DNA from: Rhizobium rhizoryzae
Lineage (GTDB): Bacteria > Pseudomonadota > Alphaproteobacteria > Rhizobiales > Rhizobiaceae
DNA length: 64,000 bases
Direction of reading: 5' to 3'
Assembly (NCBI RefSeq): GCF_011046895.1
Contig: NZ_CP049250.1
Span: forward strand, 310,001 to 374,000
Each line of letters opens with the position of its first letter. Position 1 is the first letter of the stretch. A program made the translations under genes and the position numbers. The notes under the pieces are model-generated. The model had not been told where the DNA came from. It saw only the letters and a list, made by a program, of their open reading frames with translations, and did not search any database. Of the stretch, positions 40,260 to 58,629 are shown one piece after another.

Positions 40260-40326
40260 TATTTTGGAATTGTTCAAAAGAAGCTCAAGGCTTATATGTG
40301 TGTCGAACGGAAACACGGAGACTGGC

Positions 40327-40797: not shown

Positions 40798-40878
40798 TGA
40801 CCGCATGGCGCGTTCGCCCGGGTTGAGGCTGAACGCGAGGGCCAACCCCTTGGCTGGTCTGCCACACAGCGCTGCTAG

Positions 40879-41913: not shown

Positions 41914-42396
41914 ATAATCATCTACAAAAAACCGTATTCAAAAAATGAGATATTGATGGGTTCCCGCAGTTGAACGCCTGTACAACATGAAGTACTGACA
42001 GAGATAAGCGCAAACGTTGCAGACGCGGGCGCGAAGCAGAAATTGTGTTTTGATAACCTGTCAGACGTCAGCTTACACGGGCAGTAAGCTATATGAGCGT
42101 CCAAGAACAGAGGAATGCTTCTTCTTTACTAAAGAAGTTAAGATTTCCAAAGTTCCGGCGAGCTACATGCGGGACAGTCGGGATCGTCAGATGCAATCTG
42201 GCAATGTGTGATGTCAATGAAGTTCAGTTTAAATCGTTCGATCTGATCTGGCTTCGAGGCGAATGGGATGACTGGAGCGATACGGGGTTCTCCAGTTGAA
42301 GATGCGAGAGAGGGTTTCGCTAAACGTGCATTCGCAAGCTTTCCGCAAGGAATACTTGTTATGCTGCCAGGCGCACCTGTTGAGGGGAGACTTAGA
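41914..42396. other. Intergenic region, 483 bases
   Basis: No gene or RNA recognised. It is AT-richer near 41920-42150 and must contain the promoter of the TetR gene. Confidence 0.5.
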
Positions 42397-43056
42397 ATGG
42401 ACGCAACGGGAAACCAGATGGCCGACAGGCGTGATGTAGGTTCGCATTTTGCCCTGCGCCGCATTCCGAAGCAGGAACGGAGCCGCGAGCGGATCGATGA
42501 GATCCTGAAGGTGGCGATGGACCTCATCGGCCAGAAGGGGATCGACGCGGTAACGATGAAGGAAATTGCCAGCCTGTCAGGCGGGCCGATTGCTTCCGTT
42601 TATCAGTACTTCCCCAACAAGACGGCAATCATTGCCACACTCTACGAGCGTTACATTTCACAACTGCGTTCGATCCTGGCCGGCGCGCTGCCGCAGATCA
42701 ACGAAGCGGGTGGCATTGCCGATGCTGCCGAAGAGATGATCACGCTTTATGCGAAGTTCGTGCGCTCCCATCCGCATGTTCAGGATCTGATCAATGCCGT
42801 ACAGGCGGACAAGCTGCTGGAAGATATCGACATCAAGGAAGCGCGGCAGATCGCCGACATGTTCTGCAAGGCTTCGGAGGCCTTCGTTCCAGCCAATCTG
42901 CGTGAGGAATTTGTTCGTACGGCCTTTGTCATGTGCCACCTGACGGTCAGCATGGTACGACTGGCGATCAAGGTCGCAGACGACGAAGGCGACCAGATCG
43001 TTTCCGATTTCAAGGCGTCGATCCGTCATCAGTTGAGCCGTTTCGTCAGCAAGTGA
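42397..43056 (+). CDS. TetR-family transcriptional regulator
   Basis: 219 residues from 42397, chosen because GGGGAGAC stands before this ATG; upstream codons show no resemblance. The helix-turn-helix occupies residues 30-75: RERIDEILKVAMDLIGQKG, then MKEIASLSGGPIASVYQYF, as in TetR repressors. The C-terminal ligand domain is generic. The target is not obvious; the next gene (mmsA) is convergent and has its own LysR regulator. Confidence 0.9.
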   Translation: MDATGNQMADRRDVGSHFALRRIPKQERSRERIDEILKVAMDLIGQKGIDAVTMKEIASLSGGPIASVYQYFPNKTAIIATLYERYISQLRSILAGALPQINEAGGIADAAEEMITLYAKFVRSHPHVQDLINAVQADKLLEDIDIKEARQIADMFCKASEAFVPANLREEFVRTAFVMCHLTVSMVRLAIKVADDEGDQIVSDFKASIRHQLSRFVSK

Positions 43057-43236
43057 CGTAAACGCGTCCGCTGACTGGTATATTGAATGGCCCTGCCCGA
43101 CCGGCGGGGCCGTTTTCGTTTCAAAGCGTGTCGCGATCCTTCAGATTCGCTCCTGACGCTTCAAGTCTCTTTTCATCACATGTCGTTGTCGCAAAACCGC
43201 TGCACAGTTTTGGCTACGACATGTAAGACGCACAAA

Positions 43237-43261
43237 AAAGGCGGCTCCGCGAGCCGCCTTT
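43237..43261. terminator. Bidirectional terminator between the TetR gene and mmsA
   Basis: Perfect stem AAAGGCGGCTC with three-base loop, A-run on the left and TTT on the right; 20 bases from the mmsA stop. Confidence 0.88.
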
Positions 43262-43281
43262 CTGGTCTGATCGAATGATAA

Positions 43282-44778
43282 TTACTTCATTGTCGGCATG
43301 ACGAACTGGGCGCCTTCCTTGATGCCGGAAGGCCAACGGCTGGTCACCGTCTTGGTCCGGGTCCAGAACTTGATGGAATCCGTGCCGTGCTGATTGAGAT
43401 CGCCGAAGGATGAAGACTTCCAGCCACCGAAGGAGTGATAGGCCAGCGGAACCGGGATCGGAACGTTGACGCCCACCATGCCGATATTGATGCGGCTGGC
43501 GAAGTCGCGGGCTGCATCACCATCGCGGGTGTAGATGGCAACGCCATTGCCGTATTCATGCTTCATCGGCAGATCGAGTGCTTCTTCGTAGGTCTTGGCG
43601 CGGACGACCGAGAGAACGGGACCAAAGATCTCGGTCTTGTAGATGTCCATGTCCGGCGTCACGTTGTCGAACAGGCAGCCGCCGACGAAGTAGCCGTTTT
43701 CATAGCCCTGCAGCTTGAAGTCTCGACCATCGACCACAAGCTTTGCACCTGCTTCGACACCGCTGTCGATGAGGCCCAGAATACGATCGCGCGCTTCCTT
43801 GGTGACAACCGGTCCAAGGTCGGCCCTGTCATCGGTATAAGGACCGATGCGAAGGCTTTCCACCATGGGTGTGAGTTTCTCGATGAGGCGGTTTGCCGTA
43901 TCTTCGCCCACCGGCACAGCGACGGAGATTGCCATGCAACGCTCGCCGGCAGAGCCATAGCCAGCCCCCATCAGCGCGTTGGCAGCCTGATCGAGGTCCG
44001 CATCCGGCATGATGATCATGTGATTCTTGGCGCCACCGAAGCACTGGGCGCGCTTGCCGTTCATGGCCGCCGTTCCGTAGACATAACGAGCGATCGGCGT
44101 GGAGCCGACGAAGGAAACGGCGCCGATGTCCGGATGGGTGAGGATGCCATCGACAGCCGACTTGTCACCGTTGACGACGTTGAGAATGCCTTCCGGCAAA
44201 CCAGCCTCGATCATCAGTTCGGCCAGACGGATCGGAACCGAAGGGTCGCGCTCGGATGGCTTCAGAATGAAGGCGTTGCCGCAGGCGATTGCCGGCGCGA
44301 ACATCCACATCGGGATCATGGCCGGGAAATTGAACGGCGTAATGCCTGCGCCGACGCCGACAGCCTGGCGGATCGAGTACATATCGATGTTCGGACCAGC
44401 GCCTTCCGTGAACTCGCTCTTGGACAGATGCGGAATGCCGATGACGAATTCGCAGACTTCCAGCCCGCGGATGATATCGCCCTTGGCATCTTCGATCGTC
44501 TTGCCGTGCTCGCGCGACAGCATTTCGGCGAGCGAATCCATGTTATCATTCAACAATTGAACGAACTTCATAAACACGCGTGCGCGGCGTTGCGGGTTCA
44601 TGGCAGCCCATTTCGGCTGCGCAGCCTTGGCGCTGGCAACAGCAGCGTTCAGCTCTTCCTGGCTGGCAAGAGCGACTTCACCCTGCACTTCGCCTGTCGC
44701 GGGATTGAAGATGCCCTGCTTGCGGCCCGACGTACCGGCGACCTTCTTGCCGTCGATGAAATGTCCGATTTGATACAT
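43282..44778 (-). CDS. mmsA: Methylmalonate/malonate-semialdehyde dehydrogenase (CoA-acylating)
   Basis: 498 residues, typical. Catalytic Cys281 in GSAGERCMAIS and oxyanion Asn150 in TPFNFP; the usual ALDH general base glutamate is replaced (QCFGGAKNH at 245-253), as in CoA-acylating members. MYQIGHFIDGKKV and GVNVPIPVPLAYHSFGGWK are MmsA/IolA signatures. Converts malonate or methylmalonate semialdehyde to acetyl- or propionyl-CoA with NAD and CoA, serving valine, inositol and beta-alanine breakdown, so it may complete the pathway begun by the aminotransferase at 24000. Control by the divergent LysR gene is likely. Confidence 0.95.
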   Translation of the reverse strand: MYQIGHFIDGKKVAGTSGRKQGIFNPATGEVQGEVALASQEELNAAVASAKAAQPKWAAMNPQRRARVFMKFVQLLNDNMDSLAEMLSREHGKTIEDAKGDIIRGLEVCEFVIGIPHLSKSEFTEGAGPNIDMYSIRQAVGVGAGITPFNFPAMIPMWMFAPAIACGNAFILKPSERDPSVPIRLAELMIEAGLPEGILNVVNGDKSAVDGILTHPDIGAVSFVGSTPIARYVYGTAAMNGKRAQCFGGAKNHMIIMPDADLDQAANALMGAGYGSAGERCMAISVAVPVGEDTANRLIEKLTPMVESLRIGPYTDDRADLGPVVTKEARDRILGLIDSGVEAGAKLVVDGRDFKLQGYENGYFVGGCLFDNVTPDMDIYKTEIFGPVLSVVRAKTYEEALDLPMKHEYGNGVAIYTRDGDAARDFASRINIGMVGVNVPIPVPLAYHSFGGWKSSSFGDLNQHGTDSIKFWTRTKTVTSRWPSGIKEGAQFVMPTMK

Positions 44779-44816
44779 GGTGTTCCTCCAGTGTTGTGGC
44801 CGCAGTATGCGCTTTC

Positions 44817-44861
44817 ATTTGCACAAGACAACACCATGATTTACGCATCCATTGTGCAAAT
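44817..44861. promoter_or_regulatory. Operator-like inverted repeat between mmsA and its LysR regulator
   Basis: ATTTGCACAA at 44817-44826 and its exact complement at 44852-44861, spaced by 25 bases, inside the 105-base divergent promoter region. Layout fits LysR recognition and activation sites. Confidence 0.65.
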
Positions 44862-44883
44862 TTTATAGTGCAGGGCAGGACCA

Positions 44884-45771
44884 ATGGATTGGGACAATGT
44901 GCGCATTTTTCTCGCCGTCGCTCGTGAAGGCCAGTTGCTTTCGGCATCCCGGAGGCTCGGGCTCAATCATGCGACGCTCGGGCGGCGCATCAATGCGCTT
45001 GAAGAGCAATTGCGGACTCGGCTACTGATCCGCAAGCCCAGTGGATGCGATCTCACGGCTGAGGGTCATGCCTTTTATGCCACGGCGGAACGCATGGAGG
45101 CCGAGATGCTGGCGGCGCAGGCACGAGCGGGCAATGTCGATGCTCCTATCGACGGCATTGTGAGGATTGGCGCTCCGGATGGCTTCGGCGTATCATTTCT
45201 GGCCCCAAGACTCGGACCTCTGATGCGGCGGCATCCGAACCTGCGCATCCAACTGGTGCCCGTTCCGCGTTCCTTCTCGCTCTCTTCCCGAGAGGCGGAT
45301 ATTGCCATTACTGTCGAGCAGCCCTCGCAGGGGCGACTGATCTGCGCCCGCCTGACCGATTACACGCTCGGACTTTATGCATCCGAGGATTATCTCAAGC
45401 GGCACGACGCCCCGCGCGATGTCGAAGACCTGCGACATCATGCAAGGATCGGTTATGTGGAAGATCTGATCTTTTCCCCGTCACTGAATTTCACCGGTGA
45501 AATCATGCGCAACTGGGATGCCAGTTTCGAGATCTCCAGCGCAATCGGTCAAACGGAGGCGGTTCGCTCAGGCGCTGGTATCGGCATCCTGCACGATTAC
45601 ATCGCAAGCCAGGTGCCGGAACTGCGCCGCATTCTTCCGGCCATTTCAATCCGCCGCGCCTACTGGACGAATTATCACGAGAGCCTGCGTGACATGGCAC
45701 GCATCAGGACCGTCGTTTCGTTTCTACAGGAGATCGTCGGACAAAACAGGGCACGTTTCGTGACCGAATAA
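44884..45771 (+). CDS. LysR-family transcriptional regulator of mmsA
   Basis: 295 residues. The helix-turn-helix is at residues 4-60 (WDNVRIFLAVAREGQLLSAS, LGLNHATLGRRINALEEQL), and the rest is a LysR effector domain (VRIGAPDGFGVSFLAPRLGP). Divergent from mmsA with a shared inverted repeat, so probably its activator, acting as in other LysR-mmsA pairs. It is the last core-like gene before the island; the tRNA-like attachment remnant starts 23 bases after its stop. Confidence 0.92.
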   Translation: MDWDNVRIFLAVAREGQLLSASRRLGLNHATLGRRINALEEQLRTRLLIRKPSGCDLTAEGHAFYATAERMEAEMLAAQARAGNVDAPIDGIVRIGAPDGFGVSFLAPRLGPLMRRHPNLRIQLVPVPRSFSLSSREADIAITVEQPSQGRLICARLTDYTLGLYASEDYLKRHDAPRDVEDLRHHARIGYVEDLIFSPSLNFTGEIMRNWDASFEISSAIGQTEAVRSGAGIGILHDYIASQVPELRRILPAISIRRAYWTNYHESLRDMARIRTVVSFLQEIVGQNRARFVTE

Positions 45772-45794
45772 CAGCGTCAACCATAAAGGGGGAA

Positions 45795-45843
45795 TGGTAC
45801 GGTTGGGGGGTCTCGAACCTCCGACCTCAGGTGCCACAAACCT
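45795..45843 (-). repeat. tRNA-His 3' fragment, probable attachment-site remnant
   Basis: Read on the minus strand the 49 bases give an anticodon arm with loop TTGTGGC (anticodon GTG, His), a variable region, a T-arm containing GGTTCGAG, and a terminal CCA. The 5' half of the tRNA is missing: beyond 45843 the sequence is unrelated. A 3' tRNA fragment right before an integrase gene is the usual footprint of integration into a tRNA gene. The intact tRNA-His is not in this window. Confidence 0.65.
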
Positions 45844-46042
45844 AAAGCCTAGCGTTATTGCAAGATTCCGATCGATATCGATGTCTTTTATTTTCGCGCT
45901 ATTTTGTTGACATAAATAGACTTTTCTCGTTATCTACCGTTAATCCAAGACATTGATCACCTCGCCGCTCGCCTATTGAAAGACCCAAAATCGGAGGGGC
46001 AGATGTTCCAGACGTGTTCCAGAAAACGAGCTAACGACTTCA

Positions 46043-47557
46043 ATGGCCACCATTTCCGACAAAGCCGATCTTCGCCCCTCTCATCTCGCCGACTTCCTAA
46101 AGAAGGCAAGTCCTGGGCATAAAGGCAGCCATTACATCACCGACCTGAAGTGCACCGGCCTTTCCCTCCGCCTCAAGAATGAGAAGGTTGCATTCTTTCT
46201 GCGATATAAGGGGATCAACAAAACCCTCGGGTGGGCCCACGAAGGGGAAGCTTGGTACATCCCCTCGATCAAGGCTGCGCGAGAACTTGCAGAGAAGGTG
46301 AAGCGTCAGATCGATTTCGGCGGAGACGCCCACGCGGAGGAATTCCTTCGGCAGCATCACCACGCCGTGGAAAACAACCTTGGCCTCTCTCACGATGACA
46401 TCATTCGGGAAATGCGCCCAAAGGCCGGTACGTGGACCCTGCGTCGGTGCATCGAGAAGACCATCGAGGACAAGACGGCGGAAAACGCAGCGAAGCCATG
46501 GAGAGCGACGACCATCTCCACATTGAATTCGACATTCGCGAAACCCGAATTCAAAGACCTCCTCGACATGCCGGCCGTCAATATCAAGCGCGCAGATATC
46601 GAGAGCATTCGCGACGTCATGCTGAAGAAGCATGCATCCCCCTCCCCCGCAGGAAAAGCGGTTTCGAACGTCAGTACCATTCTCAGCCACTGCCAGTCCG
46701 TCCACGGCGGACTGTCGGGATTGGATCGGGTTGAGCCGTGGTGGAAACTCTTAACGGTCGGGCGGACGGTGAAGCCCCGGACCAGAAATCCGGGGCTGGA
46801 AGGGCTAGCGAAAACGCTCGTCCTCGTCGACACCTACACGACGAGACGCCTGCCTGGGCGCTTAGACGCCAAGCATGACCACAAGTACGGGATTCGTGAC
46901 GGTGTTGCCGCCGCCTTCCACTGGGTATGCCTAACGGCGCAGAGGCAGGGAGCCGCCTTGGCAATTCGCAAAGCCTTCTACGTTCCGGACCCGGAAAATG
47001 AAGGCTGGTATCTGGCCGCATGGGGAGAAGGGATCATGAAGGCCGGCGTGGCCCACATCCTGCCCATCCCTCCCCGGCTGGTCCAGCACATGGCCAAAAA
47101 GCTCGCGCTCGTGAACAGGGCAGATAGCGAGTGGCTTTTCCCCTCTGAGCGCGGCGAGGAAGATATCCATATCCACCGGTCGTCTACACTTGCCGTCTGC
47201 CAGCGGTTGGCCGCAAGAGATACGCTTGCGAAGAAGCGCAAGACCGCTGTCGACCTCTTCGCGACGAACGGCATCAGATGGTGGACGCCACATGATCTGC
47301 GCACCACGATCACCAAGACGCTGGACCAAGCCGGCATTCCGGGGGGCGCATCTGTGGTACTTGCTCACGAAATAAGACGCACCGACAAACTGGACGCCGA
47401 AGACGACGACTCGCGCGAGCAGCGGATTGCCCGGATCACGAGGTTGGCTTACGGAGGTGCGCAACACCTACACCTGAAGCGCAAAGCCATGTCGATTTGG
47501 ACAGACGCGGTACTGGATGCATACCTAGAGCTTAGAAGAAAAGATATGCAGTCCTGA
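46043..47557 (+). CDS. Tyrosine recombinase / integrase
   Basis: 504 residues. Catalytic residues of the tyrosine recombinases can be placed: Arg301 (TAQRQG), His417 and Arg420 (PHDLRTT), His442 (AHE) and nucleophile Tyr470 (LAYGGAQH). The N-terminal DUF4102-like arm-binding part shows GLSLRLKNEKVAFFLRY. It is longer than most P4-type integrases (about 400 residues) because of a ~60-residue insertion between His-x-x-Arg and the preceding strand. It lies between the tRNA-His remnant and tRNA-Lys, so it probably mobilised part of the island. No excisionase was recognised. Confidence 0.9.
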   Translation: MATISDKADLRPSHLADFLKKASPGHKGSHYITDLKCTGLSLRLKNEKVAFFLRYKGINKTLGWAHEGEAWYIPSIKAARELAEKVKRQIDFGGDAHAEEFLRQHHHAVENNLGLSHDDIIREMRPKAGTWTLRRCIEKTIEDKTAENAAKPWRATTISTLNSTFAKPEFKDLLDMPAVNIKRADIESIRDVMLKKHASPSPAGKAVSNVSTILSHCQSVHGGLSGLDRVEPWWKLLTVGRTVKPRTRNPGLEGLAKTLVLVDTYTTRRLPGRLDAKHDHKYGIRDGVAAAFHWVCLTAQRQGAALAIRKAFYVPDPENEGWYLAAWGEGIMKAGVAHILPIPPRLVQHMAKKLALVNRADSEWLFPSERGEEDIHIHRSSTLAVCQRLAARDTLAKKRKTAVDLFATNGIRWWTPHDLRTTITKTLDQAGIPGGASVVLAHEIRRTDKLDAEDDDSREQRIARITRLAYGGAQHLHLKRKAMSIWTDAVLDAYLELRRKDMQS

Positions 47558-47690
47558 CATTCATAGCCGACGAGAGGCGATCACCAAGCTACGTGCAAGG
47601 ATGACACCTCGGCGAATACAGATACAGAACTTGCTAGACGACGGTGCCGAACCAATCTATAAGCGCCTACGTCTTGAGTAGGCGTCGTGG

Positions 47691-47766
<76 letters not shown>

Positions 47767-47768
47767 TC

Positions 47769-49586
47769 TCAACTCTTCGAAGCGGGCGGGGAGAGCTCGT
47801 CTAGAACGTCGAGTAGGAACTTCCGGATTGTCTCACATCCAGTATCGGCGTCGTCGGGCCGAATGGAGAACGCTCCTAGCCCTGGGATGACTTCGTGGTA
47901 TTCCTGCCACAAGAAATTTCGGTGACCCGAGCCGTATCCAGGGTATAAAACGTAGGCTCCCTTGGATCGTCTGATAGCATCTTTATAAGCGTGCATCTTC
48001 AGTAAATCACCTCGGGTGTATCTTCCTACCCGCTGGCTCCTCTTTTCTTCATCAACGTCTATTTCGGGATCACCAAAAAGCTCCTTGAGTTGATCAACGC
48101 TATACTTTGCATCGAAGTGCAAATGTATGAGCTTGCCATTCGCAGCCGCCTCATTTTGATCGAAGGCGGACGGCCAGATGGAAATCGTGAAATCTGGGCG
48201 CATTTTTCTCGACCATGAATCCGCGCTCCCAGAGTCAAAGAACGTCAAACGTTTGAAATTTGGCTTCGAAGGGCCGTCGGAAAACGTCCGATTGTAGCTG
48301 AACTGAAGCTTCCACTCATCACCATTGTGTCTGAAGGCTACTCCCGGCAGCGGCAGAACCTCACCGGACTTCACTTTTAACCCAAACCCGTCTGACCTCG
48401 GAACCACGATTGTGTTGATCACTTCTTCTCGCGCCACACCAAACCAAGGTTCCAACGCCCTGAGCAATACAAAGAAAAGCCAGTATTCGTACAGGGCCGC
48501 CGCGTTTCTGCTGCCCGCGCTGATGACATCATCTAATCCGCCCCAGGTCAGACGCCCCGCAGCGTTGAACTTGAGCCACGCTTCAAGGACTTCGCGATAC
48601 CCAGCCTTCCGCTGCAGCACTGGGCTGCCAAGCGGCAGCTCAGTGAGATGGGATACGTCCTGGAAGAGGTCATGGCTGCGGTATTCCTCCATGCGCTGGA
48701 GCAATGGTCCGATCTCCCGGCCGACGAAGTGCACAGCGGCCCTACCCTTAGATTGCAGGATCGTGGACATTGTGGTGAGAAGCTCAATGAACTGTTCGAT
48801 GACAAACAGAACGAAGCGGTTCTCCGGGGTGTCGTGCGTCTCCACAACGGCGCTGCTATATATGTAGCGAGGCACGGTGGGTAGAGATGCGCTTAAAGGA
48901 TGGGAGGGACCTAATCGTTCACGAGGATAGCGCGAAGCGATCTGCCGGCCGATCTCGGCACCTCCACTGACCGGCCTTGAGGCTGAGCGCTCTTCATGTG
49001 TTGCGACGAGTCGACTATGGGGCTGGGCCAAGACCTGCTGCATCGCGGCTCGGAAGTCCGCGCTGTCGATGAGCGAGCGGAGAAAGAAAAATTGCTGTTG
49101 AAGTGAGTCACTATCTTTCGTGAGATCGAAATCTACGTCAACGGACGACGGGGAGAACATGGCGAGAAGCAAGTCAAGTGAGACGTTCGCAATGTCGTCA
49201 AGCATGCTCCGGTAGTCGCTCCGGAAATCAAGCTTTCTGGACCGGACCTCAACTCTTGCCGAGCCAACTCGCTGGCCGGCTCGGAGAAGGTGTAGCTGTA
49301 GCGATCCGACGTAGAGGCCAGGCGTCAGCATTCCGCGGTCAAGATCAACAGCTCCGACCATAAAGCGTTGGAGAATGCCAGGAATCGGCTCCAGCTCCAA
49401 TCCAGCATCCTTGACCTCATAGTGGTATGTGCGCCCCTCAAGTAGTTGGATGGGCTCCTCGCCGTACTCAAGCGCTTCCGACACCGGCAATACCTTGATC
49501 GCATCAAGATCGCTTTCGCGGGCGACGATCAGCAGTTCGGTTACCCGATGGCCTTGATCATCCTCAAAGGCAAGGCACGTGAGCAA
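47769..49586 (-). CDS. DUF2357 / PD-(D/E)XK nuclease, McrC-like restriction subunit
   Basis: 605 residues. The N-terminal half is a DUF2357-type domain (LYVGSLQLHLL, FRSDYRSMLDDIANVSLDLL at 121-140, ETHDTPENRFV at 249-259), and the C-terminal quarter carries a PD-(D/E)XK nuclease core with MRPDFTIS (Asp465) and FDAKYS (Asp492, Lys494). In BsuMI/LlaJI-like systems this protein is the nuclease loaded by the McrB-like AAA+ partner. Its start is three bases after the partner's stop, so the subunits are coexpressed. Expected to cut DNA lacking (or carrying) the cytosine-5 mark set by the methyltransferase upstream. Predicted, not shown. Confidence 0.85.
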   Translation of the reverse strand: MLTCLAFEDDQGHRVTELLIVARESDLDAIKVLPVSEALEYGEEPIQLLEGRTYHYEVKDAGLELEPIPGILQRFMVGAVDLDRGMLTPGLYVGSLQLHLLRAGQRVGSARVEVRSRKLDFRSDYRSMLDDIANVSLDLLLAMFSPSSVDVDFDLTKDSDSLQQQFFFLRSLIDSADFRAAMQQVLAQPHSRLVATHEERSASRPVSGGAEIGRQIASRYPRERLGPSHPLSASLPTVPRYIYSSAVVETHDTPENRFVLFVIEQFIELLTTMSTILQSKGRAAVHFVGREIGPLLQRMEEYRSHDLFQDVSHLTELPLGSPVLQRKAGYREVLEAWLKFNAAGRLTWGGLDDVISAGSRNAAALYEYWLFFVLLRALEPWFGVAREEVINTIVVPRSDGFGLKVKSGEVLPLPGVAFRHNGDEWKLQFSYNRTFSDGPSKPNFKRLTFFDSGSADSWSRKMRPDFTISIWPSAFDQNEAAANGKLIHLHFDAKYSVDQLKELFGDPEIDVDEEKRSQRVGRYTRGDLLKMHAYKDAIRRSKGAYVLYPGYGSGHRNFLWQEYHEVIPGLGAFSIRPDDADTGCETIRKFLLDVLDELSPPASKS

Positions 49587-49589
49587 GAG

Positions 49590-51347
49590 CTAGCCCTCTG
49601 CGAAGCTAACAAAGCCAGTCGATTTGACCTTCATCAGCATGCGTTCAATTTTCCTGTGTGAAAGAGGAAGGAAAGGCGTCGCAGTAAGTTCGTCTGTGGT
49701 CCCAGCCTGCGCGATACCCTTGGAAGCGGCAATTGCAGCGTTCAGCCCCGTGAGGTTTTTGATCCCGGCCGGTTCCCACTCATGTCTCTCTTGGCAGTAT
49801 GCTCGAAGCTTGAGCAACAGGGGTTCAACGCGCTTGCGTGCTCCATGGATACGGGGCAGAATTTTCTGAAGCACTTGATGGTCCAATGCTGTAGCCAGTA
49901 CTGCGTAGCGTGCCACGTCTGTCGCAGCCTGCCTCGCTTCAAAAATAAACCAGAAGTATCGCGTTATCTCCTGGGCGCTACGGAAACCGAATTCCATCTC
50001 CTCCTCTGCAAGTAGATTGAAGAGGAGCATGATCTCTGCGGCGGCGGGGTTCCGAACAGCTTCAGGTAGTTCTGCGGGAGTCACTTTGAACTGCTGGGCT
50101 TCGACAAGGACGTTGCCAAAGCTGCTGCCGTTGCTATCAATTCGGCTAGTAGAGGACTTCGCTCCGCCGAGGAAAGCGAGCATAGCTTCTCCAGACGTCC
50201 TGAACTCAATTACATTCGCACGATCCAGCACCTTCGGAGAAAACATGTAGGTCGTCTCGTCAACATTGACCGTACCAATCACGAACAGGTTCGGGGGCAG
50301 ATTGGGCAGCTGACCAGGGATGCCATCTCTTGGCTTGGCATCGCCGTGCAAGTAGATGGGCTCTTGCGGCGATTCAATAGCGGACAGGAAATCAGCAAAA
50401 TAACGCTCGACGTGTGAGAGGTTCATTTCATCGAGCACGATGAAATACGGCTGCTTGGGGTCCTTAATCGCCCTGATCAGTACATCGAGGACTTTCGTCC
50501 GGATATATCGGCTCTCATTTAGGGCATCCGCATATCCAAGAACATGCTCATTGGAAGTCCAATTCGCCCCCACCGCTACAACAGCGTACTGCTCAGGGCT
50601 TGTGGTACACCAACGAAGAAAGGATCGTGCAAGTAACGTTTTTCCCGATCCCGACAAACCAGTCAATATTAGGAATCTTTTGGAAAAGAGGGCCAGAAGC
50701 AGCCTTTCATCAACGTTCTGAACCACAGCGTACCCTGACGAAGAGAGATCGCTTCTCCAGCTTTCCGCCATGCTCTTGTACTGCATCAGGACCTCTCCTG
50801 CGTTGTCGTATACTGTCCTGGCTAAATCAATTATTGCCCCCGCCTTTTCCGCGGCAATGATCCACATGCTGCGATTGGCAGGGCCCAAGGCCGCCAGTGC
50901 TTCGGAATAGGCTGCCTGCTCTACAGGACTCACGGGTCGATCCGGTTGATCGACCCCTTTCAAGACGATGAATGAAAGGGTGGATGTCGAGCGGTCGAAT
51001 GCCATGAGCAAGAGGTCATCCTCGCGTACATCGTACAGCTCGCCAGGGATGGCGTCTCCTGCCAGCCGCCAGTTCTTTCCGCCACCTTGAAGTCGGATCG
51101 TTCGCCGATCAGTAAGTATCTTCCGCGTCTGCGCCGGCGTGCCGTCTAGGAAGCGTGTGTTTATTTCGATAGGTTTTTCACTGGCCGGAGCGAGATTGGG
51201 AAACCAGTCGGCAAGCACATCCCTATTGATATTTATGGCACGCTCTCTGCCAGAGGCCTCGCCCAGTGTTTCCCGGGTACGGTGGAACCAGCCCAAGTTC
51301 GAGGGGGCAAGTTTGCGCGCAGCGTAAACGACATCCACTGCGTTCAT
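49590..51347 (-). CDS. McrB-like AAA+ GTPase/ATPase, restriction subunit
   Basis: 585 residues. AAA+ motor from about 215 to 480: Walker A GLSGSGKT at 230-237, Walker B FIVLDEMN at 302-309 with the McrB-type NLSHVERYFADFLS following, the sensor strand GTVNVDETT at 358-366 and arginine-bearing VLDRA at 373-377. GTVN(V)DETT is the McrB-family signature. The first ~200 residues are a separate domain that may recognise DNA. It overlaps the methyltransferase gene by four bases and precedes the nuclease gene by three, so all three form one operon. GTP or ATP use cannot be told from sequence. Confidence 0.9.
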   Translation of the reverse strand: MNAVDVVYAARKLAPSNLGWFHRTRETLGEASGRERAININRDVLADWFPNLAPASEKPIEINTRFLDGTPAQTRKILTDRRTIRLQGGGKNWRLAGDAIPGELYDVREDDLLLMAFDRSTSTLSFIVLKGVDQPDRPVSPVEQAAYSEALAALGPANRSMWIIAAEKAGAIIDLARTVYDNAGEVLMQYKSMAESWRSDLSSSGYAVVQNVDERLLLALFSKRFLILTGLSGSGKTLLARSFLRWCTTSPEQYAVVAVGANWTSNEHVLGYADALNESRYIRTKVLDVLIRAIKDPKQPYFIVLDEMNLSHVERYFADFLSAIESPQEPIYLHGDAKPRDGIPGQLPNLPPNLFVIGTVNVDETTYMFSPKVLDRANVIEFRTSGEAMLAFLGGAKSSTSRIDSNGSSFGNVLVEAQQFKVTPAELPEAVRNPAAAEIMLLFNLLAEEEMEFGFRSAQEITRYFWFIFEARQAATDVARYAVLATALDHQVLQKILPRIHGARKRVEPLLLKLRAYCQERHEWEPAGIKNLTGLNAAIAASKGIAQAGTTDELTATPFLPLSHRKIERMLMKVKSTGFVSFAEG

Positions 51348-52834
51348 TCAGCTGCAGCCGCATGATGGGCCGGACTCGCCTCGGCGAGCTGCTGCTTCAA
51401 TTGTGAAGCGACAGCGAATGCGAGCAATGGCGGCACGGCATTCCCAATCTGCGTCAACTGGGTATTCATGCTACCCGCGAGACGGAAAGCGTCTGGAAAG
51501 GATTGTATACGTGCAGCTTCCCGCAGAGAAATCCCACGCGCCTGCTCGCCGTCGAAATGGATGTGGGAATAAGCATCTTTCCCGATGTGCGCGGGCAAAG
51601 TTCTCGCGGGTTGATCACGCCACATTTTGCGGAACTTGTTGGGGTAGCGATTGTCTTTGTACGGAGGCACAGTTGCAGCAAACAGGTCCTTGTACTCTTC
51701 GTCGGTCTCGACAAGCTTCCGCTTCAGCTTCTTCTCTAACCGTGCCAACCGTTCGCCAAAAATCTCATTTGCGGTTGCTAAGGCCTCTGGGTACATTCCA
51801 CCTTCGGGCATGCGCCTAAAGGTCTCATAGTCTCTCGGCGTGTAGCGTATCACATGTCCCGTGAAAGTTGACCCCGCCTTGAAATGCGGCCACTCCTTCA
51901 TCGATCGAGTGAAGGCGGTTTCATTCCCATTGTATTCGAATAATTCAGCGATATCGCGAGGGTTCCCTTTCCCTTTCTTTCCATCGAGATGTGATGTGAT
52001 CTTCGGCAGGTCAGCAAAGGCGTCCGAAACGGTCACCGCTGGAGCCAGCTGGGGCAGAGCATTGGCATGATCAACGAAATGATCGAAGGGAGGCAGGACC
52101 TGTAAATGCCCCTTCCCGGATCGGGAAGTCGAATACCCACCTGGGATTTCACAGTGATGCGCGATCAATGGAAACTCCGGGATCGTGGAAAGCTCCTTTC
52201 GGATGCCTATGATTATCATGCGCTCGCGCAGTTGCGGAACGCCATACCATGCCGCATTCAAGAGACAATAGCGCGTCGAATAGCCAAGTTCATCAGCGGT
52301 AGCAGCCACTTCCTCGGCTACATTGCGGCCAACAAACTTGCCAATCTCGCGAACGTTTTCCATCACAAATGCGACGGGCTTCAAAGACGCAACGAAACGG
52401 AGATAGTGGTGGTACATCGAGGCCCGCTGGTCCTCGCCGTGAGCGTGGTCCTTGCCGGCCAACCGCCAGAGGGCAGCACGACCGAGTCGCGAAAATGCCT
52501 GGCACGGAGGGCCACCGACAATCACATCAACCCGCTCACCGACTTCGCCATGATGTCGCAGATGCGCCACCGCATCCTCTGGCTCGAGTGTCGTGATATC
52601 TGAAAAACTCCGATAGTCTCCCTCGGGAACTAACCGCGCGAAATTCAGCTCATGCGACGCCCGGGCGTAATCATTGATCTCAACAGCAGCTACAGACCGA
52701 AAGCCTGCCCTGTCGAACCCCAGACTCATCCCCCCACACCCCGCGAACAAATCGAGAGTGCGAAAATACCCCCTCTCATCAGCTCGCCGGAGTTTTTCAA
52801 GAATCAGCGGCTTATCACCTGCTCTTTTATTCAA
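51344..52834 (-). CDS. DNA (cytosine-5) methyltransferase of the restriction operon
   Basis: 496 residues. Motif I LFAGCGGMSLGFDRAGF at 29-45, motif IV GGPPCQAFS with catalytic Cys111, motif VI MENV near 157, motif VIII in LRERMIIIGIR, and motif X IGNAVPPLLAFAVA near the C-terminus are all in order. The target-recognition region lies between about 300 and 440 and gives no known site. First gene of a minus-strand operon with the McrB-like and nuclease genes; the divergent vsr gene would repair T:G mismatches from deamination of the methylated cytosine. A modification partner is therefore the likely role. Confidence 0.94.
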   Translation of the reverse strand: MNKRAGDKPLILEKLRRADERGYFRTLDLFAGCGGMSLGFDRAGFRSVAAVEINDYARASHELNFARLVPEGDYRSFSDITTLEPEDAVAHLRHHGEVGERVDVIVGGPPCQAFSRLGRAALWRLAGKDHAHGEDQRASMYHHYLRFVASLKPVAFVMENVREIGKFVGRNVAEEVAATADELGYSTRYCLLNAAWYGVPQLRERMIIIGIRKELSTIPEFPLIAHHCEIPGGYSTSRSGKGHLQVLPPFDHFVDHANALPQLAPAVTVSDAFADLPKITSHLDGKKGKGNPRDIAELFEYNGNETAFTRSMKEWPHFKAGSTFTGHVIRYTPRDYETFRRMPEGGMYPEALATANEIFGERLARLEKKLKRKLVETDEEYKDLFAATVPPYKDNRYPNKFRKMWRDQPARTLPAHIGKDAYSHIHFDGEQARGISLREAARIQSFPDAFRLAGSMNTQLTQIGNAVPPLLAFAVASQLKQQLAEASPAHHAAAAE

Positions 52835-53000
52835 TTCATCGCTCGCACAATCAGCATCAGTGATGGTTCGCCCATTTAAGTGGCGATTCGTCGATGATTC
52901 ATATCATCATTCAATTTGCAACGCATTGGAGCTGCCAGCCTTTCAAACGGTTTATTGCAGTGTATGAGGTCCCACTGAAATCTCACCGATGGAGGTCCAA

Positions 53001-53495
53001 TTGGCGGATATACTAAGCCAGCAGGAACGTTCAGCCTTGATGGCTAGGATCAAAGGAAAAGACACAAAGCCTGAGATGCTCGTTCGTCGGGGCCTTTTCC
53101 GCAAAGGTTACCGGTTTAGACTACATCGCCAGGTAGGTCTGTCACGCCCCGACATCGTCCTTGGCCCTCGGAAAGTTGCCATTTTCATCCATGGCTGCTT
53201 CTGGCATCAACATGACAGATGCCGTCACTACAGACTGCCGAAGAGCAATATTGAGTTTTGGAGGGGCAAACTTTCGAAGAACAGCCTCCGAGATCGCCAA
53301 AATGTTGAGGCGCTCCATCGAGCGGGCTGGCGTGTGGCCCTAATATGGGAATGCGGGGCCCGCGATCCTGATTTGATCGAGGAACTATCCGGCTGGATAG
53401 ATCGAACCCAGTCGTTTTTCGTCGCTTCGGAAGCAGGCGGGTTACGTTCGGTAGAGCTGATAGATAACTTGGAGCTGCCACCAACAGAAAAGTGA
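53001..53495 (+). CDS. vsr: Very-short-patch mismatch repair endonuclease
   Basis: 164 residues from the TTG at 53001: GGAGG stands five bases before it and the protein then starts MADILSQQERSALMARIKGK, as in other Vsr proteins; an ATG at 52989 would place the ribosome site inside the gene. The nuclease core has Asp51 (SRPDIV), the GCFWHQHDRC zinc/active region at 65-74, and IWECG near 117. Nicks 5' of T in T:G mismatches made by 5-methylcytosine deamination. Divergent from the methyltransferase with 166 bases between. Confidence 0.93.
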   Translation: MADILSQQERSALMARIKGKDTKPEMLVRRGLFRKGYRFRLHRQVGLSRPDIVLGPRKVAIFIHGCFWHQHDRCRHYRLPKSNIEFWRGKLSKNSLRDRQNVEALHRAGWRVALIWECGARDPDLIEELSGWIDRTQSFFVASEAGGLRSVELIDNLELPPTEK

Positions 53496-53555
53496 CCTGG
53501 AAATAGGCGGCAGTCGTCCACTCTTTAACGAGATGCCAAGGGTTGAGCTGGATCA

Positions 53556-54521
53556 CTAGGTGTTTAGTCCCGGCATTTGGTGGTGCGGGTTGAGTTTAAA
53601 CCGTTCCGGCTCTGTTGCCCAGATTTTGCAGATATATTCGTAGGGCGTCAGGCCGCGCAGTGTCTTTAACCGCCGGCCGTAATTGTAGGCGTCAACGAAA
53701 TCATGAAGGTGGGCTTTTAGCTGTGCATGGCTGTCGTAGTGGTAACGTTTGACGGTCGCTTCCTTGATCGTGCGATTCATTCGCTCGACCTGGCCGTTGG
53801 TCCAGGGATGCTTGATTTTGGTGAGCCTGTGCTCGATCCCGTTCTCACGGCAACGCATGTCGAACATGTGCGTGATGTACGTGGCCGTAGGCCCATCGGC
53901 GTAGCGCGGTGGGAACGTGAACTGGATGCCATTATCGGTCAGGACGGTGTGGATTTTGTAGGGCACGGCCGCGATCAGCGCGACGAGAAAGGCGGACGCC
54001 AATGTCCTGCCTGTTCTCGTGACCAACTGCACGAAGGCGAACTTGCTGGTTCGGTCTATCGCCACGTAAAGATAGAGCTTTCCTTCGGCTGTGCGCACTT
54101 CGGCGATGTCAATGTGGAAGTACCCGATAGGGTAGGTCTTGAACTTCTTCTTCGGCTCCTTGTCCCCTGTTACTTCTGGCAATCGGCTGATCTCATGCCG
54201 TTGTAAGCAGCGATGCAGGGACGAGCGGGTCAAGTGCGGGATCGTAGCCTGCAGGGCGTAGAGGCAGTCATCCAACGGCAGCAGCGTGTGTCGGCGGAAG
54301 GCAACGATGATCGCCTCTTCTTCGATTGAAAGTGTCGTCGAGTGCGCGTCTTTCGGACCGGTTGGCAGGTCCTTCACCGCTGTGCGCCGCTTCCACTTTG
54401 CTACGGTCTTCTGGTTGATCCCATAGCGTTTCGCCAGAACCCTCAGGCTCTCTTGACTATGTTGTATCGCTCGACGGACTGCCTCTGTCGTGCGGGCGCT
54501 CCCGTGCAGAATCTGACCCAT
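53556..54521 (-). CDS. IS481-family transposase
   Basis: 321 residues from 54521 (GGAGGG before the ATG). N-terminal helix-turn-helix (LRVLAKRYGINQKTVAKWKR) then an rve-type catalytic core with Asp138 (FHIDIAEV), Asp196 (VLTDNGIQF) and Glu246 (NGQVERMNRT). The stop codon TAG is not part of the element: the frame reads through the left terminal repeat and is closed by flanking CTAG. Intact, so probably active. Confidence 0.95.
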   Translation of the reverse strand: MGQILHGSARTTEAVRRAIQHSQESLRVLAKRYGINQKTVAKWKRRTAVKDLPTGPKDAHSTTLSIEEEAIIVAFRRHTLLPLDDCLYALQATIPHLTRSSLHRCLQRHEISRLPEVTGDKEPKKKFKTYPIGYFHIDIAEVRTAEGKLYLYVAIDRTSKFAFVQLVTRTGRTLASAFLVALIAAVPYKIHTVLTDNGIQFTFPPRYADGPTATYITHMFDMRCRENGIEHRLTKIKHPWTNGQVERMNRTIKEATVKRYHYDSHAQLKAHLHDFVDAYNYGRRLKTLRGLTPYEYICKIWATEPERFKLNPHHQMPGLNT

Positions 54522-54577
54522 AGTGCATCCCTCCATTCCTGGCTGAATAATGCACCATCAAACGCCGGGACCAAACA
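53561..54577 (-). mobile_element. IS481-family insertion sequence (1017 bases)
   Basis: Terminal inverted repeats of about 26 bases with three mismatches: TGTTTAGTCCCGGCATTTGG at the left end, and the complement of the right end reads TGTTTGGTCCCGGCGTTTGA. The left flank ACTAGG (53555-53560) is an NCTAGN site, the target known for IS481. The right flank (GCCCTT) is different, so no target duplication remains, and an IS5-family transposase is cut at exactly 54578. This suggests a deletion next to the element after insertion. Confidence 0.9.
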
Positions 54578-55501
54578 GCCCTTGATACCGCAACGGTTAA
54601 ACCGTCTTCGCTGGAGCGCATCACGGTGGACACGACAGTGCAGCCCAAGGCGATTGCCTATCCGACCGATGGTCGGCTTTACCTGAAGGCGCTCATGGCC
54701 CTTGTGCGCCTGGCCAAGCGTTTCGGCATCGAGCTTCGCCAGAGCCACACCCGGCTTGCCAAGGCCGCCGCCCTCAGAGCTGGCCGCTATGCGCATGCCA
54801 GGCAGTTTCGCCGCATGCGCCGGGAATTGAAGAAGCTGCGCACCTATCTCGGCCGCGTCTATCGCGATATCGGCCGCAAGATTGCCGGAAACCTCGATCT
54901 TCAGGCCCGCTTTGCAAGGCTTCTGGGTCTTGTCGAGCGGCTGCTGGCCCAAAAACCCAAGGACAGAAACAAGCTCTACGCGCTGCATGCACCCGAAGTC
55001 GTGTGCATCTCCAAGGGCAAGGCTCGTACTCCTTACGAGTTCGGGGCCAAGGTCGGCATCCCAACAACCAACCGCGAGGGGCTCGTGCTGGCCTCTGTCG
55101 CCTTCGAGAACAACCCCTATGACGGACACACGCTCAATCGGACGGTGGCTGAGGCAGTCGAGATCGGTGGTGTCAATCCAGAGCGCATCTATGTCGACAA
55201 GGGCTATCGCGGGCACGATTATGAAGGGCCTGCCACCGTCTTCATTGCCGGGCAGAAGCGCGGGCTTACCCCCACCATCCGTCGTGAGCTCAAGCGACGA
55301 TCCGCCATCGAGGCCACCATCGGTCACATGAAAACCGATGGTCGCCTCGACAGAAACTTTCTCCTCGGGCAGGATGGCGATGCCGCCAACGCCACCCTCG
55401 TGGCCGCAGCCCACAATCTGCGCCTCATCCTCAAGGCAATCGCCTTCTGGTGTGCCTTGATCCTGCTCGCCAGCCGAAATGCAGAAGCCAAAACCGCATA
55501 A
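54578..55501 (+). pseudogene. IS5-family transposase, 5'-truncated by the IS481 element
   Basis: The frame is open from the IS481 boundary at 54578, reading ALDTATVKPSSLERITVDTT, and ends at 55501; the N-terminal third of the transposase is missing. Remaining features are IS5-type DDE parts: VDTTVQPKAI (first Asp), YVDKGYRGHDY (second Asp) and RRSAIEATIGHMK (Glu). A GTG at 54626 could start a product, but the protein would lack the N-terminal domain. The missing 5' part is not found left of the IS481 element. Confidence 0.9.
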
Positions 55502-55886
55502 ACCAATCCTTCGCCAGCACCATCATACTGCACAAAATCAACGGCATCCGCGTTGTTCAGGGAGCACTACCTAACTTGCGTAGCACCTTCGCCAGTCTGG
55601 TTAGGCCGTACCGCTCTCTGCGATGAAAGCCAGGAAAGCGCCGCGCTGGTCTGGCTTGATCAACTTCACATTGAAGACAAGCCCGGATCGGCTATCGCAA
55701 ATGCTCCACGATGTATTGACGGCTTTGGCTGCCGGTTGCGACCGGATCGTGATCCGTGGAAATGCCACGCGGCAAGTTATCCAGCACCATTTCATCACCT
55801 GCCTTGACTTCGAATCGGCCTAAAGCGGTAACTGCCAAAACCACCTTGAAGCCGGTCTATATTCGCTACACCATTGTGAGCGTGAC
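55502..55886. other. Region of 385 bases after the IS5 remnant, with a doubtful small frame
   Basis: Probably holds the right end of the IS5-type element in the first ~60 bases. A 66-residue frame at 55623-55823 (MKARKAPRWSGLINFTLKTS...) has protein-like composition but no recognised family, no ribosome site, and an equally open antisense frame, so it is not called as a gene. Confidence 0.4.
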
Positions 55887-57260
55887 TTGAAAAGCACGTG
55901 CACGCAGGCGGTAGTCTTGAGCGACAACCAAGAAGAATTCGACGCGTTGAGCCAGGCGGCACGATCTTTTGTGGACGAGCATGGCAAGAATGCCGACCGG
56001 CTATTCAACTTCTGCGAAAACTTCATGCACGACTGGCGCGAGAAACGCGGCACACGAGGCGCAAACGACAATAGGCTCGTCAATGACGTCTTCCGCTGGA
56101 CGATGAACCGGTATAATCGGCCACGTTACCAACCCAGGCGCAGCCGTGAAGAGCGCGCATCCACTTTTCTTCTGACTCCGGGAGCGTACCAGATGTCAGC
56201 GGAAGACTTCGGTCGGGCGTCCGTTCGAAATGCGGCCCGGATCACCGGCCAATCGAAGAGTACGGTTGGGAGGCACCTTGTGCGCCACGGCATCGCCCCG
56301 CGCCGTGATGCCAAAATCAAGAAGTTGACCAAGACTACGCAACAGCTCGTGCGCATTCTCGATGCGACGTTTGATCGGCAGGCAGCGGGTATTCTTCAGC
56401 TTGAAAGGCTGGGAACGGCTTTGTGGGACGCAGGCGAAACACGCCACGTTCCACCTACAACGCAGGCCTCACGCAAAAAGAAACTGACAGAGCTGCTAGC
56501 CGAGATTTCCGGCGCAGGCGTCGGCTACAACATTGTTACGATCGGGGATGTTTGCGGCGTCTTCCACGGACGTCGTTTCCGCTCACTGGGGGAAGCGAGC
56601 ACTTGGATAGCGGACGCACAGCGCCTGGGACGCTATCCCGCCATCCGTCAGCCTGAACCTATCGCCGTACCAGCCGCACGGGATTACTTCTGGGCCGATC
56701 CCTTTGTCAGGGACGTCATGGCTATCATCGAGATGGGTGTGACCGGTCATTTCTACCCTATAGAAAAACTAGACGCCATATACCGCTTCGAGCGGCTGCT
56801 GACCGACATGACGCCGGTTCTGCCATGGCTGGAGCGCGCCCATCATTCCTTCGCTGGCGATGACATGGCGGAGAACCTCTCAACGCTGGCGGACAAGATC
56901 AACGATCCGGCCGTGCGCAAGGCAACCCGACGTCTTGCCAAAATCATGAGAGACCTCAAAAACTTCATGGGGCCGTTGCCGACATCCTTCGATGCGTTCC
57001 AAAACGTCGACATGGTCCTCAGCGTCATGGACAAGACAGCGGAGGCGTCTCCCGAAAGCTTTGCCAGGCTGGCCTACATCCGGGAATCGTTCGCGATGAG
57101 CGGCGACGATTACCTTGAAGCCAGAGGCCGTCTTTCGCGGATGCTGGTGCTGGAGAAGTCAGGCGAATGGCAAGCGCCCGACAGCGAGACCCTGTCTCAC
57201 TACCTTCCAGAGGTAGTGCGGGAGGTTGAAGTGGGCGACGAAAACGACATGCCATACTGA
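55887..57260 (+). CDS. Hypothetical protein with possible helix-turn-helix
   Basis: 457 residues from a TTG at 55887; an internal ATG could also serve. No family recognised. Residues ~108-130 (SVRNAARITGQSKSTVGRHL) read as a helix-turn-helix, followed by basic RHGIAPRRDAKIKK. The middle contains GYNIVTIGDVCGVFHGRRFR and the C-terminal half is helical and acidic (LERAHHSFAGDDMAENLSTL). The protein has no signal or membrane segments, so a cytoplasmic DNA-associated role, such as a plasmid or element regulator, is possible. Gene order: IS remnant, this gene, flagellin. Confidence 0.65.
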   Translation: MKSTCTQAVVLSDNQEEFDALSQAARSFVDEHGKNADRLFNFCENFMHDWREKRGTRGANDNRLVNDVFRWTMNRYNRPRYQPRRSREERASTFLLTPGAYQMSAEDFGRASVRNAARITGQSKSTVGRHLVRHGIAPRRDAKIKKLTKTTQQLVRILDATFDRQAAGILQLERLGTALWDAGETRHVPPTTQASRKKKLTELLAEISGAGVGYNIVTIGDVCGVFHGRRFRSLGEASTWIADAQRLGRYPAIRQPEPIAVPAARDYFWADPFVRDVMAIIEMGVTGHFYPIEKLDAIYRFERLLTDMTPVLPWLERAHHSFAGDDMAENLSTLADKINDPAVRKATRRLAKIMRDLKNFMGPLPTSFDAFQNVDMVLSVMDKTAEASPESFARLAYIRESFAMSGDDYLEARGRLSRMLVLEKSGEWQAPDSETLSHYLPEVVREVEVGDENDMPY

Positions 57261-57531
57261 TTATGCCATTATTTTCAGATTCTTAATCGATATTGTCCCG
57301 TTTTTCTTATATAGTAAGAAATATTGCTCTTGGTGGAGACCGACTTGGGCAACCAGGCGAGCCAATGACGCTCGACGAGAAACTTTGATCGAAAAGCGAT
57401 CAGCCTCCGTATTTTTACCCAAACAACGTCGGACGAAAATTAAGACCTCATGAACCATTTTGCCTTCGCGGCAAATTGCGCCGACGGCACATGAAGAGCC
57501 AAGACCTCATCGCATTCGACGGCTCCATTCC

Positions 57532-58629
57532 ATGACCAGCATAATCACGAATAACGCTGCGCTTGCGGCCCTCAGCACCTTGCGGGATGTGGGCACACGA
57601 CTCGGCACAGAGCAAGATCGCATATCCACCGGACTGCGGGTGGCAACGGCATCAGACAACGCCGCCTACTGGTCGATTTCAACCACGATGCGTTCCGAAA
57701 CAAAGTCGATGGCAGCTGTCACCGATAGCATAGGTCTTGCGAAAGGCATCGTTGATGTCGCCTACACCGCAATGGAGACCGTGCATAAGAGCTTCGTAGA
57801 AATCAGAAACCTCGCGATAACAGCTAGCGGCATGCCGCAGCCGGAATTCAAAAACCTCATAATCGGCGGGTATGACCTCGACGAGTATTACGGCAAGTCG
57901 CAGGTCGCCGACATCGAGCGGCAGATGCAACAGTTGCAGGACCAAGCCCGCGATGCGATGGTGTCCGCATCGTTCTCGGGAGTGAACCTGCTGTATAATC
58001 CGAAGGGGCAACCCGAGAAGGCCAGTCAACGGACTTACTCCTTCGTGATCGGATATGGCGAAGCGAAGGTCCAGACCATAGACGTCAAGGCGATTGACCT
58101 CCTGTTGCTCAATGACGACTCGGGGTATCCGAAGACGTCTCCCTGGGATTACAATCCCGAAGAGGCGCTGTTCGACCAAGCGGACGTCGTCATGACACCG
58201 GGGTCGGTCGTACCGGCTTTGGTGACGTGGTACAACATCATTGCGACCAATCCCGTGACGGGCGTTCCGGAAGCATACGACGTGCATCCATCCTTTCCGT
58301 TGATGAACCTCGAAAACAATATCGCTCGAGACGGCGGGGACCGGGCAGGTCTATACTCCAACTTCGTAGACACCCTCGAGAAGAAAATACAGGGTGTCGC
58401 CGACCGCATGTCCTATCTCGGTTCCATTCAGAGCTCTCTCGAGGCACATGAAGAACTGAACAAACGGCGGATCGAAACGGTGACCCAGGGTGTGGGGCTT
58501 CTTGTCGATGCGGATATGAACGAGGCATCTACCCGCCTGAAGGCTTTGCAAACCCAGCAGCAGCTTGCAACACAGGGGTTACAGATCGCCAACGCTTCCC
58601 CTGATTCCATTCTGCAACTGTTCAGGTGA
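57532..58629 (+). CDS. Flagellin-like protein (orphan)
   Basis: 365 residues from the ATG at 57532. The N-terminal D0/D1 helices are those of rhizobial flagellins (SIITNNAALAALSTLRDVGT, ISTGLRVATASDNAAYWSIS), as is the C-terminal part (RMSYLGSIQSSLEAHEELNK, ATQGLQIANASPDSILQLFR). The central 150 residues, from about 165 to 300, are unlike usual flagellin variable domains and are polar with several aromatic residues. No other flagellar genes or flaF/flbT are nearby. No membrane export signal is needed, as flagellin leaves by the flagellar type III route. Its function in an island is unknown; it could be an alternative filament subunit. Confidence 0.88.
   Translation: MTSIITNNAALAALSTLRDVGTRLGTEQDRISTGLRVATASDNAAYWSISTTMRSETKSMAAVTDSIGLAKGIVDVAYTAMETVHKSFVEIRNLAITASGMPQPEFKNLIIGGYDLDEYYGKSQVADIERQMQQLQDQARDAMVSASFSGVNLLYNPKGQPEKASQRTYSFVIGYGEAKVQTIDVKAIDLLLLNDDSGYPKTSPWDYNPEEALFDQADVVMTPGSVVPALVTWYNIIATNPVTGVPEAYDVHPSFPLMNLENNIARDGGDRAGLYSNFVDTLEKKIQGVADRMSYLGSIQSSLEAHEELNKRRIETVTQGVGLLVDADMNEASTRLKALQTQQQLATQGLQIANASPDSILQLFR

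Follow-up and report, generated by a model that had tools for sequence, protein, structure and literature searches.

A putative restriction-modification cassette of Rhizobium rhizoryzae with an NxD-type McrB-like motor and a predicted B3-type reader that recurs on other machines

The 64,000-nucleotide stretch of the Rhizobium rhizoryzae genome analysed here (the window; assembly GCF_011046895.1, contig NZ_CP049250.1, positions 310,001 to 374,000 of the forward strand) contains four adjoining genes that we propose to be a mobile restriction-modification cassette. Three of them, on the minus strand, encode a cytosine-5 DNA methyltransferase (MTase; window positions 51344-52834, 496 amino acids), a McrB-like AAA+ motor (49590-51347, 585 amino acids) and a McrC-like nuclease (47769-49586, 605 amino acids). 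The MTase and AAA+ genes overlap by four bases, and the AAA+ stop and the nuclease start are three bases apart. The fourth gene, on the plus strand and divergent from the other three, encodes a Vsr (very short patch repair) endonuclease (52989-53495, 168 amino acids). The TTG starts of the nuclease and MTase genes are mechanical calls and uncertain, and a scan for a sigma-70-like promoter between vsr and the MTase gene found none. A first-pass annotation of this DNA had described the same coordinates, gene order, divergent vsr and protein identities, all of which hold, and its count of a single methyltransferase agrees with the one MTase found among the eight proteins scanned with Pfam between 44.9 and 57.3 kb.

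What do the four proteins retain of the families to which they are assigned? The nuclease matches DUF2357 (E 1.2e-42; residues 85-337, about 48576-49334) and PDDEXK_7 (E 2.7e-20) in Pfam, with the PD-(D/E)XK nuclease domain at residues 365-551 (about 47934-48494), and its PD...DAK site (P464 D465 ... D492 A K494) falls in invariant columns of the motif alignment. The MTase, identified through Pfam, NCBIfam and PADLOC, matches DNA_methylase (E 1.1e-58) and has intact PPC, ENV and QxRxR motifs. Vsr, identified through the same three collections, matches Pfam Vsr (E 1.6e-25) and NCBIfam TIGR00632 (vsr; E 9.1e-39), and contains the PD, HGCFWH and WEC motifs with the conserved catalytic and zinc residues kept. 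The first-pass annotation had wanted the Walker and nuclease residues compared with known active sites; in the alignments the motif residues of all four proteins, which we take to be the catalytic ones, are intact.

The AAA+ protein gives weak Pfam AAA matches only and aligns weakly with solved McrB chains (E about 2e-4); it is also the PADLOC candidate PDC-M26A (E 5.9e-45), a system (PDC-M26) that we did not find in a literature search. It contains Walker A GLSGSGKT (G230-T237), Walker B LDEMN (D306 E307) and the signature N361 V362 D363 E364 (N-V-D-E). Bell et al. (2024) describe NxD-type proteins as a separate McrB branch, in which the signature is usually followed by Glu or Asp (PMC11090510; this and the other papers cited by accession are drawn on in part). 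By its signature the window motor is a predicted member of this branch: NxD is followed by Glu, and a DNA MTase and a DUF2357/PD-(D/E)xK McrC adjoin it. In an alignment of 28 McrB-like proteins selected for similarity to the window protein, 25 have NxD, two have NxxD and one has no aligned motif. According to the 2024 census no NxD-type McrB had been characterised, the MTase-associated members being deferred to a later paper, and two-component genes are frequent in the NxD operons associated with MTases (PMC11090510); none was found among the window proteins scanned. "Uncharacterised" may be too strong a word for the branch if the AAA+ protein of PcaRCI, discussed below, is of the NxD type.

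Among the N-termini of other McrB-like proteins, that of the window is matched only by a copy in Mesorhizobium (next best E 0.15). However, residues ~8-140 (50928-51326, minus strand) have matches in eight viral-contig proteins whose genes adjoin those of related MTases (phmmer E 9e-8 to 8e-5). This family surfaced only after MTase relatives had been collected from viral contigs (84 loci, of which 23 were scanned for the four cassette families in one scan and 40 in another). An iterated search, which took in all loci then collected except nine short or duplicate ones, recovered 20 proteins among 5,021 open reading frames (ORFs), those of the window and Mesorhizobium included. A 21-row profile that left out the McrB fusions nevertheless found the McrB-like proteins of the window (E 4.6e-15) and Mesorhizobium (E 3.4e-14), and no reversed decoy at E<=10, in a target set of 10,042 sequences, half of them reversed decoys. 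Similarly, separate profiles of the NOV_C, GHKL and other readers find the window McrB at E 4.8e-11, 3.5e-6 and 0.0067, respectively, against best decoys at E 0.26, 3.7 and 1.9. The invariant columns of the family include K-N-W-R and a glycine three positions on.

Structure prediction, proposed in the first-pass annotation, models this domain well (AlphaFold pLDDT 82.6, pTM 0.80), with a B3-type fold. The top Foldseek match in the PDB is the EcoRII N-terminal domain in complex with cognate DNA (E 7.8e-4, probability 1.00, TMq 0.49); no other match reaches E<=0.001. Full EcoRII and the plant B3 domains of LEC2, VAL1 and FUS3 follow (probability 0.93-0.99), after which the probability falls to 0.13 or less among the best 50 of the 590 matches; no LlaJI structure is among those 50. 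Because the TM-scores are modest, we claim for residues ~8-140 a predicted B3-type DNA-reading fold class and not close kinship. No Pfam match at E<=10 to the modified-base readers DUF3578, YTH or EVE was found.

Where else is this reader found? We favour, with some reserve, the proposal that one B3-type reader family is plugged into at least four kinds of restriction machine and occurs by itself too, with a C5-MTase of the same kind next to it in nearly all cases and usually a Vsr, so that MTase, Vsr and reader would form a portable self-marking kit, and that the window is the case of an NxD McrB with a predictable target, the unmethylated MTase site. The four machines are NxD McrBC, a single NOV_C nuclease, GHKL/Z1 systems, and long proteins beside HerA ATPases. 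NOV_C (PF13020) lies in the C-terminal part of seven readers tested. The reader is fused to a GHKL ATPase in two loci (HATPase_c_3 in L096 and L170) and is found on the GHKL protein of a Rhodovastum locus (L054) by tblastn and Pfam; in L180 a Z1 protein adjoins the reader gene. In L121 and L181 the reader starts a long protein whose neighbour gene encodes a HerA-type ATPase. Finally, stand-alone readers of 182-200 amino acids occur in L045, L047, L182 and L185, the first two beside Z1, PD-(D/E)XK, AIPR and ATP-binding genes.

Selection by MTase similarity makes the MTase neighbours in the viral set (L088-L166) uninformative, and for this question we used only searches of genomes and plasmids with the reader domain alone. 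The genome searches covered overlapping sets of 385, 388 and 387 genomes and, at E<=1e-28, gave seven strong hits besides the window's own genome and Mesorhizobium (G1007, G281, G484, G105, G266, G313 and G027). A C5-MTase of the same family lies near all seven, adjacent in six and 3.3 kb off in G281, and Vsr lies near five; one of the two without it is a 4.3 kb contig. Two weak hits, G811 (E 3.4e-4) and G624 (E 5.1e-4), have neither MTase nor Vsr in the stretches fetched. Searches of plasmids by tblastn with two readers gave one and two records, and in all three a C5-MTase is adjacent or within ~6.4 kb; two of them, from Azospirillum ramasamyi and Rhodovastum, had come up earlier in the MTase search. 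The window N-terminus alone found no plasmid by tblastn. An exception from the set chosen by MTase is L121, whose C5-MTase is of a more distant kind and where no Vsr was found.

Several smaller observations concern these loci. The long proteins of L121, L181 and L103 (611-649 amino acids, reader at the start) have no Pfam family over cut-off; that of L121 has two weak sub-cut-off matches to other families, and the remaining two have nothing. NurA, a candidate name for these three proteins, drew no support from Pfam and is not used. L121 also has an AIPR gene nearby. L093-L095 were dropped as stand-alone readers and may be broken GHKL fusions, and the product of the weak hit in G624 was read by eye as a resolvase. 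In the Azospirillum ramasamyi plasmid (L046) one MTase lies between a reader-NOV_C gene and a McrB-McrC-Vsr module, and the Rhodovastum plasmid (L054) has in one cluster the reader on two effectors, a NOV_C protein and a GHKL ATPase.

The complete cassette recurs in Mesorhizobium sp. YM1C-6-2 (L002), with the same four genes in the same order and at amino acid identities of 88% (MTase), 83% (nuclease), 79% (McrB) and 66% (Vsr), which argues that the operon is not a chance assembly; in that copy the MTase gene abuts the McrB gene. When window positions 40001-60000 were compared with 15.8 kb of L002, DNA similarity was confined to the cassette (47796-53284, 76% over 5,508 columns), and the four genes appear to constitute one mobile block. 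Searches with the whole McrB found one other close locus in genome contigs and no close relative in viral contigs; among 397 genomes of the window's order three match at E<=1e-15, namely its own, that of Mesorhizobium and one partial match. Rough Nei-Gojobori omega values between the two copies (nuclease 0.063, McrB 0.082, MTase 0.031) fit the view that the whole set of four, including motor and nuclease, has been kept working.

The search for homologous operons suggested by the first-pass annotation thus gave the same four families in seven loci besides the window, or eight of the 35 loci examined: the window, Mesorhizobium, Deinococcus gobiensis (L044), Azospirillum ramasamyi (L046), Rhizobium rhizogenes (L048), R. 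leguminosarum (L049), genome G518 (L074) and Caballeronia SBC2 (L082). Those 35 comprise the window, L002, 18 plasmid stretches and 15 others, of which two are plasmid stretches as well; because they had been selected for resemblance in MTase or McrB, eight of 35 is no natural frequency. In four of the eight (L044, L046, L048 and L049) vsr lies directly 3' of the nuclease gene, and we count Vsr, on gene content, as a likely member of the set.

How does the cassette compare with known systems? Of the systems tested in print, the one nearest in gene content is PcaRCI of Pectobacterium carotovorum RC5297, which likewise has one C5-MTase, one McrB-like AAA+ protein and one DUF2357 nuclease, and which restricts unmethylated plasmids and phages (PMC8989522). 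The PcaRCI MTase is Dcm-like (CCNGG); the main text of that paper never uses the word Vsr, whereas the window has vsr; and its authors describe the DNA-binding domain of the AAA+ protein as unrelated to that of McrB (PMC8989522).

The first-pass annotation had called the operon BsuMI/LlaJI-like. In LlaJI and BsuMI, a McrB-like motor and a PD-(D/E)XK nuclease likewise share an operon with 5mC MTase genes. The comparison stands as to likely function but not as to family. The LlaJI/BsuMI nuclease family, RE_LlaJI (PF09563), gives no match in the window nuclease at E<=10 and none in the window's own genome, whereas the B. subtilis control genome has a match above the cut-off; the gene found there, unnamed in the search result, is presumably that of BsuMI. 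DUF2357, for its part, has no match in any of 14 control genomes. In LlaJI R1 the signature retains the NTxD threonine (PMC1459862), whereas the window has NxD, and LlaJI has two MTases for an asymmetric site (PMC12707154), whereas the window has one. On the other side, LlaJI restricts unmethylated DNA (PMC1459862), and the suggestion that the window system works like LlaJI gains support because the LlaJI motor also carries an N-terminal B3 reader (PMC12707154, PMC7680126). A B3 domain at the N-terminus of the motor would thus be common to both, in the window on the strength of the model, and we do not claim the same B3 subfamily.

Other systems share parts of this architecture. CglI and NgoAVII likewise combine a C5-MTase, a B3 reader that binds the cognate site and a motor driven by nucleoside triphosphate that leads to cutting at a specific site, but with a PLD nuclease and a DEAD/Z1 helicase in place of McrC and AAA+ (PMC4267653). 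In MORC/paraMORC restriction-modification operons, cytosine methylases occur together with Vsr genes and, in some cases, VP1/RAV (B3) proteins, and several relatives of the window reader likewise lie in clusters with GHKL ATPases; the machinery of those operons is nevertheless a GHKL ATPase and an SF2 helicase, and the parts of the paper drawn on never name McrB (PMC2292703). CoCoNuTs are coiled-coil McrB fusions whose McrC nuclease is often missing or inactive, with a HEPN or other nuclease partner. In the window the PD...DAK site is intact, the N-terminus models as B3, and the Pfam scan, which was not aimed at coiled coils, shows no HEPN family among eight proteins. Classical Type IV McrBC carries a modified-base reader, in place of which the window protein has the predicted B3 fold.

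We propose, with a probability of roughly three in four (about 0.77), that the four genes form a mobile restriction-modification cassette directed at unmethylated DNA, which it would cut at the site of its MTase or starting from there. The MTase would methylate C5 in one DNA site. This site is probably a palindrome, since a single enzyme has to protect the two strands, whereas LlaJI uses two MTases for an asymmetric site. The N-terminal B3-type domain would read the same site when it is unmethylated, a target suggested by the fold, the neighbours that share the reader, LlaJI and EcoRII. The NxD AAA+ ring, once loaded, would hydrolyse nucleotide (GTP by analogy) together with the McrC-like DUF2357 protein, and motor and nuclease would move along the DNA and cut it with the PD...DAK site, as in McrBC. 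Vsr, as other Vsr enzymes do, would repair T:G mismatches that arise from deaminated methylated cytosines. The first-pass annotation had held that cleavage depends on the absence of methylation, and by analogy this is the most likely reading, because PcaRCI has been tested, the B3 domain of LlaJI reads the unmodified site, and CglI and NgoAVII point the same way. Target site, cleavage and phage defence are accordingly predictions.

Several findings weigh against this proposal. The nuclease model is too poor to use (pLDDT 58). In five other MTase-McrB-McrC-Vsr cassettes the N-termini belong to a separate family (37-52% identity in nine of ten pairs, 87% in one) that has no detectable similarity to the window reader; therefore the window type of reader is not obligatory. 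The window MTase is only 32-39% identical in its recognition region to 11 MTases outside Mesorhizobium (47-55% in the core), and target sites may therefore differ among relatives. Across 23 loci, reader and MTase recognition region co-vary (Mantel r 0.64), but reader and MTase core do so as strongly (r 0.67; partial correlation 0.19, p 0.012), with the effector class of L088, L100, L050, L183, L184 and L180 assigned by resemblance and not by Pfam, and this mirror-tree test therefore gives no proof of shared site specificity. One reader searched against 50,697 phage records gave no match. Finally, dS between the window and Mesorhizobium is 1.6-2.2 and the synonymous sites of Vsr are saturated (pS 0.77 against pN 0.22), and the omega values are therefore rough.

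Three other readings have to be weighed. The cassette may be decayed or reduced to its MTase, with only methylation and Vsr repair working; the lack of a known phenotype and the TTG starts of the nuclease and MTase genes would fit, but the intact motifs and the low, if rough, omega of the nuclease and McrB genes make this unlikely. It is quite improbable that the motor and nuclease are instead a methylation-dependent (Type IV) McrBC that lies next to an MTase/Vsr pair by chance and is aimed at foreign DNA carrying methylation. Such a system would agree with the McrB and McrC homology and with the methyl dependence of classical McrBC, but with an MTase gene that shares four bases with the McrB gene here and abuts it in Mesorhizobium, a nuclease dependent on 5mC would endanger the DNA of its own host; moreover, the reader has a predicted B3 fold with no modified-base reader family found, and PcaRCI and LlaJI cut unmethylated DNA. 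Least probable of all is an NxD system with RNA as its target or abortive infection as its mode of action, the prediction made for CoCoNuTs; the window shares their NxD signature, but its PD...DAK site is intact, HEPN is absent among the proteins scanned, and the reader matches DNA-bound B3 domains and adjoins a DNA MTase.

The surroundings of the cassette differ between its two copies. In the window a tRNA-Lys(CTT) gene (47691-47766, plus strand) ends two bases from the nuclease stop, as the first-pass annotation had observed. Because the 15.8 kb around the Mesorhizobium copy contain no tRNA-Lys (a tRNA-Val lies ~4 kb away), this junction is not a conserved part of the system. The tRNA-Lys gene is a second copy in the genome, identical in 76 of 76 bases to C4:2326355-2326430, and 11 relatives with a tRNA-Lys match of >=95% have one such match listed each; no second copy of its 3' end was found in the window. 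An apparent orphan tRNA 3' end (45795-45828, minus strand; T-arm to CCA) lies beside an ORF (46043-47557) with a weak Pfam match to an integrase arm domain, has no other genomic match within three mismatches of 28 bases, and is possibly the remnant of an attachment site. Directly beyond vsr is an integrase-core (rve) transposase-like ORF (53556-54536, minus strand; Pfam), and further on a 457-amino-acid ORF (55887-57260, plus strand) with no Pfam family at E<=0.001.

What is new here is the predicted B3-type reader on this McrB and the presence of its relatives on other effectors near the same MTase family. We found no paper that describes a reader shared among McrB-like, NOV_C and GHKL proteins, in a search largely outside the subscription literature, nor a mention of a B3 reader shared across effectors in the parts of the 2024 census drawn on (PMC11090510). 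The compact cassette offers a testable member of the NxD branch, with a predicted reader, one MTase as a marker and an intact nuclease. If the reader family does guide unrelated cutters, then target recognition would be exchanged between restriction systems independently of motor and nuclease, and knowing the motif that one member methylates could assist in predicting the targets of its relatives.

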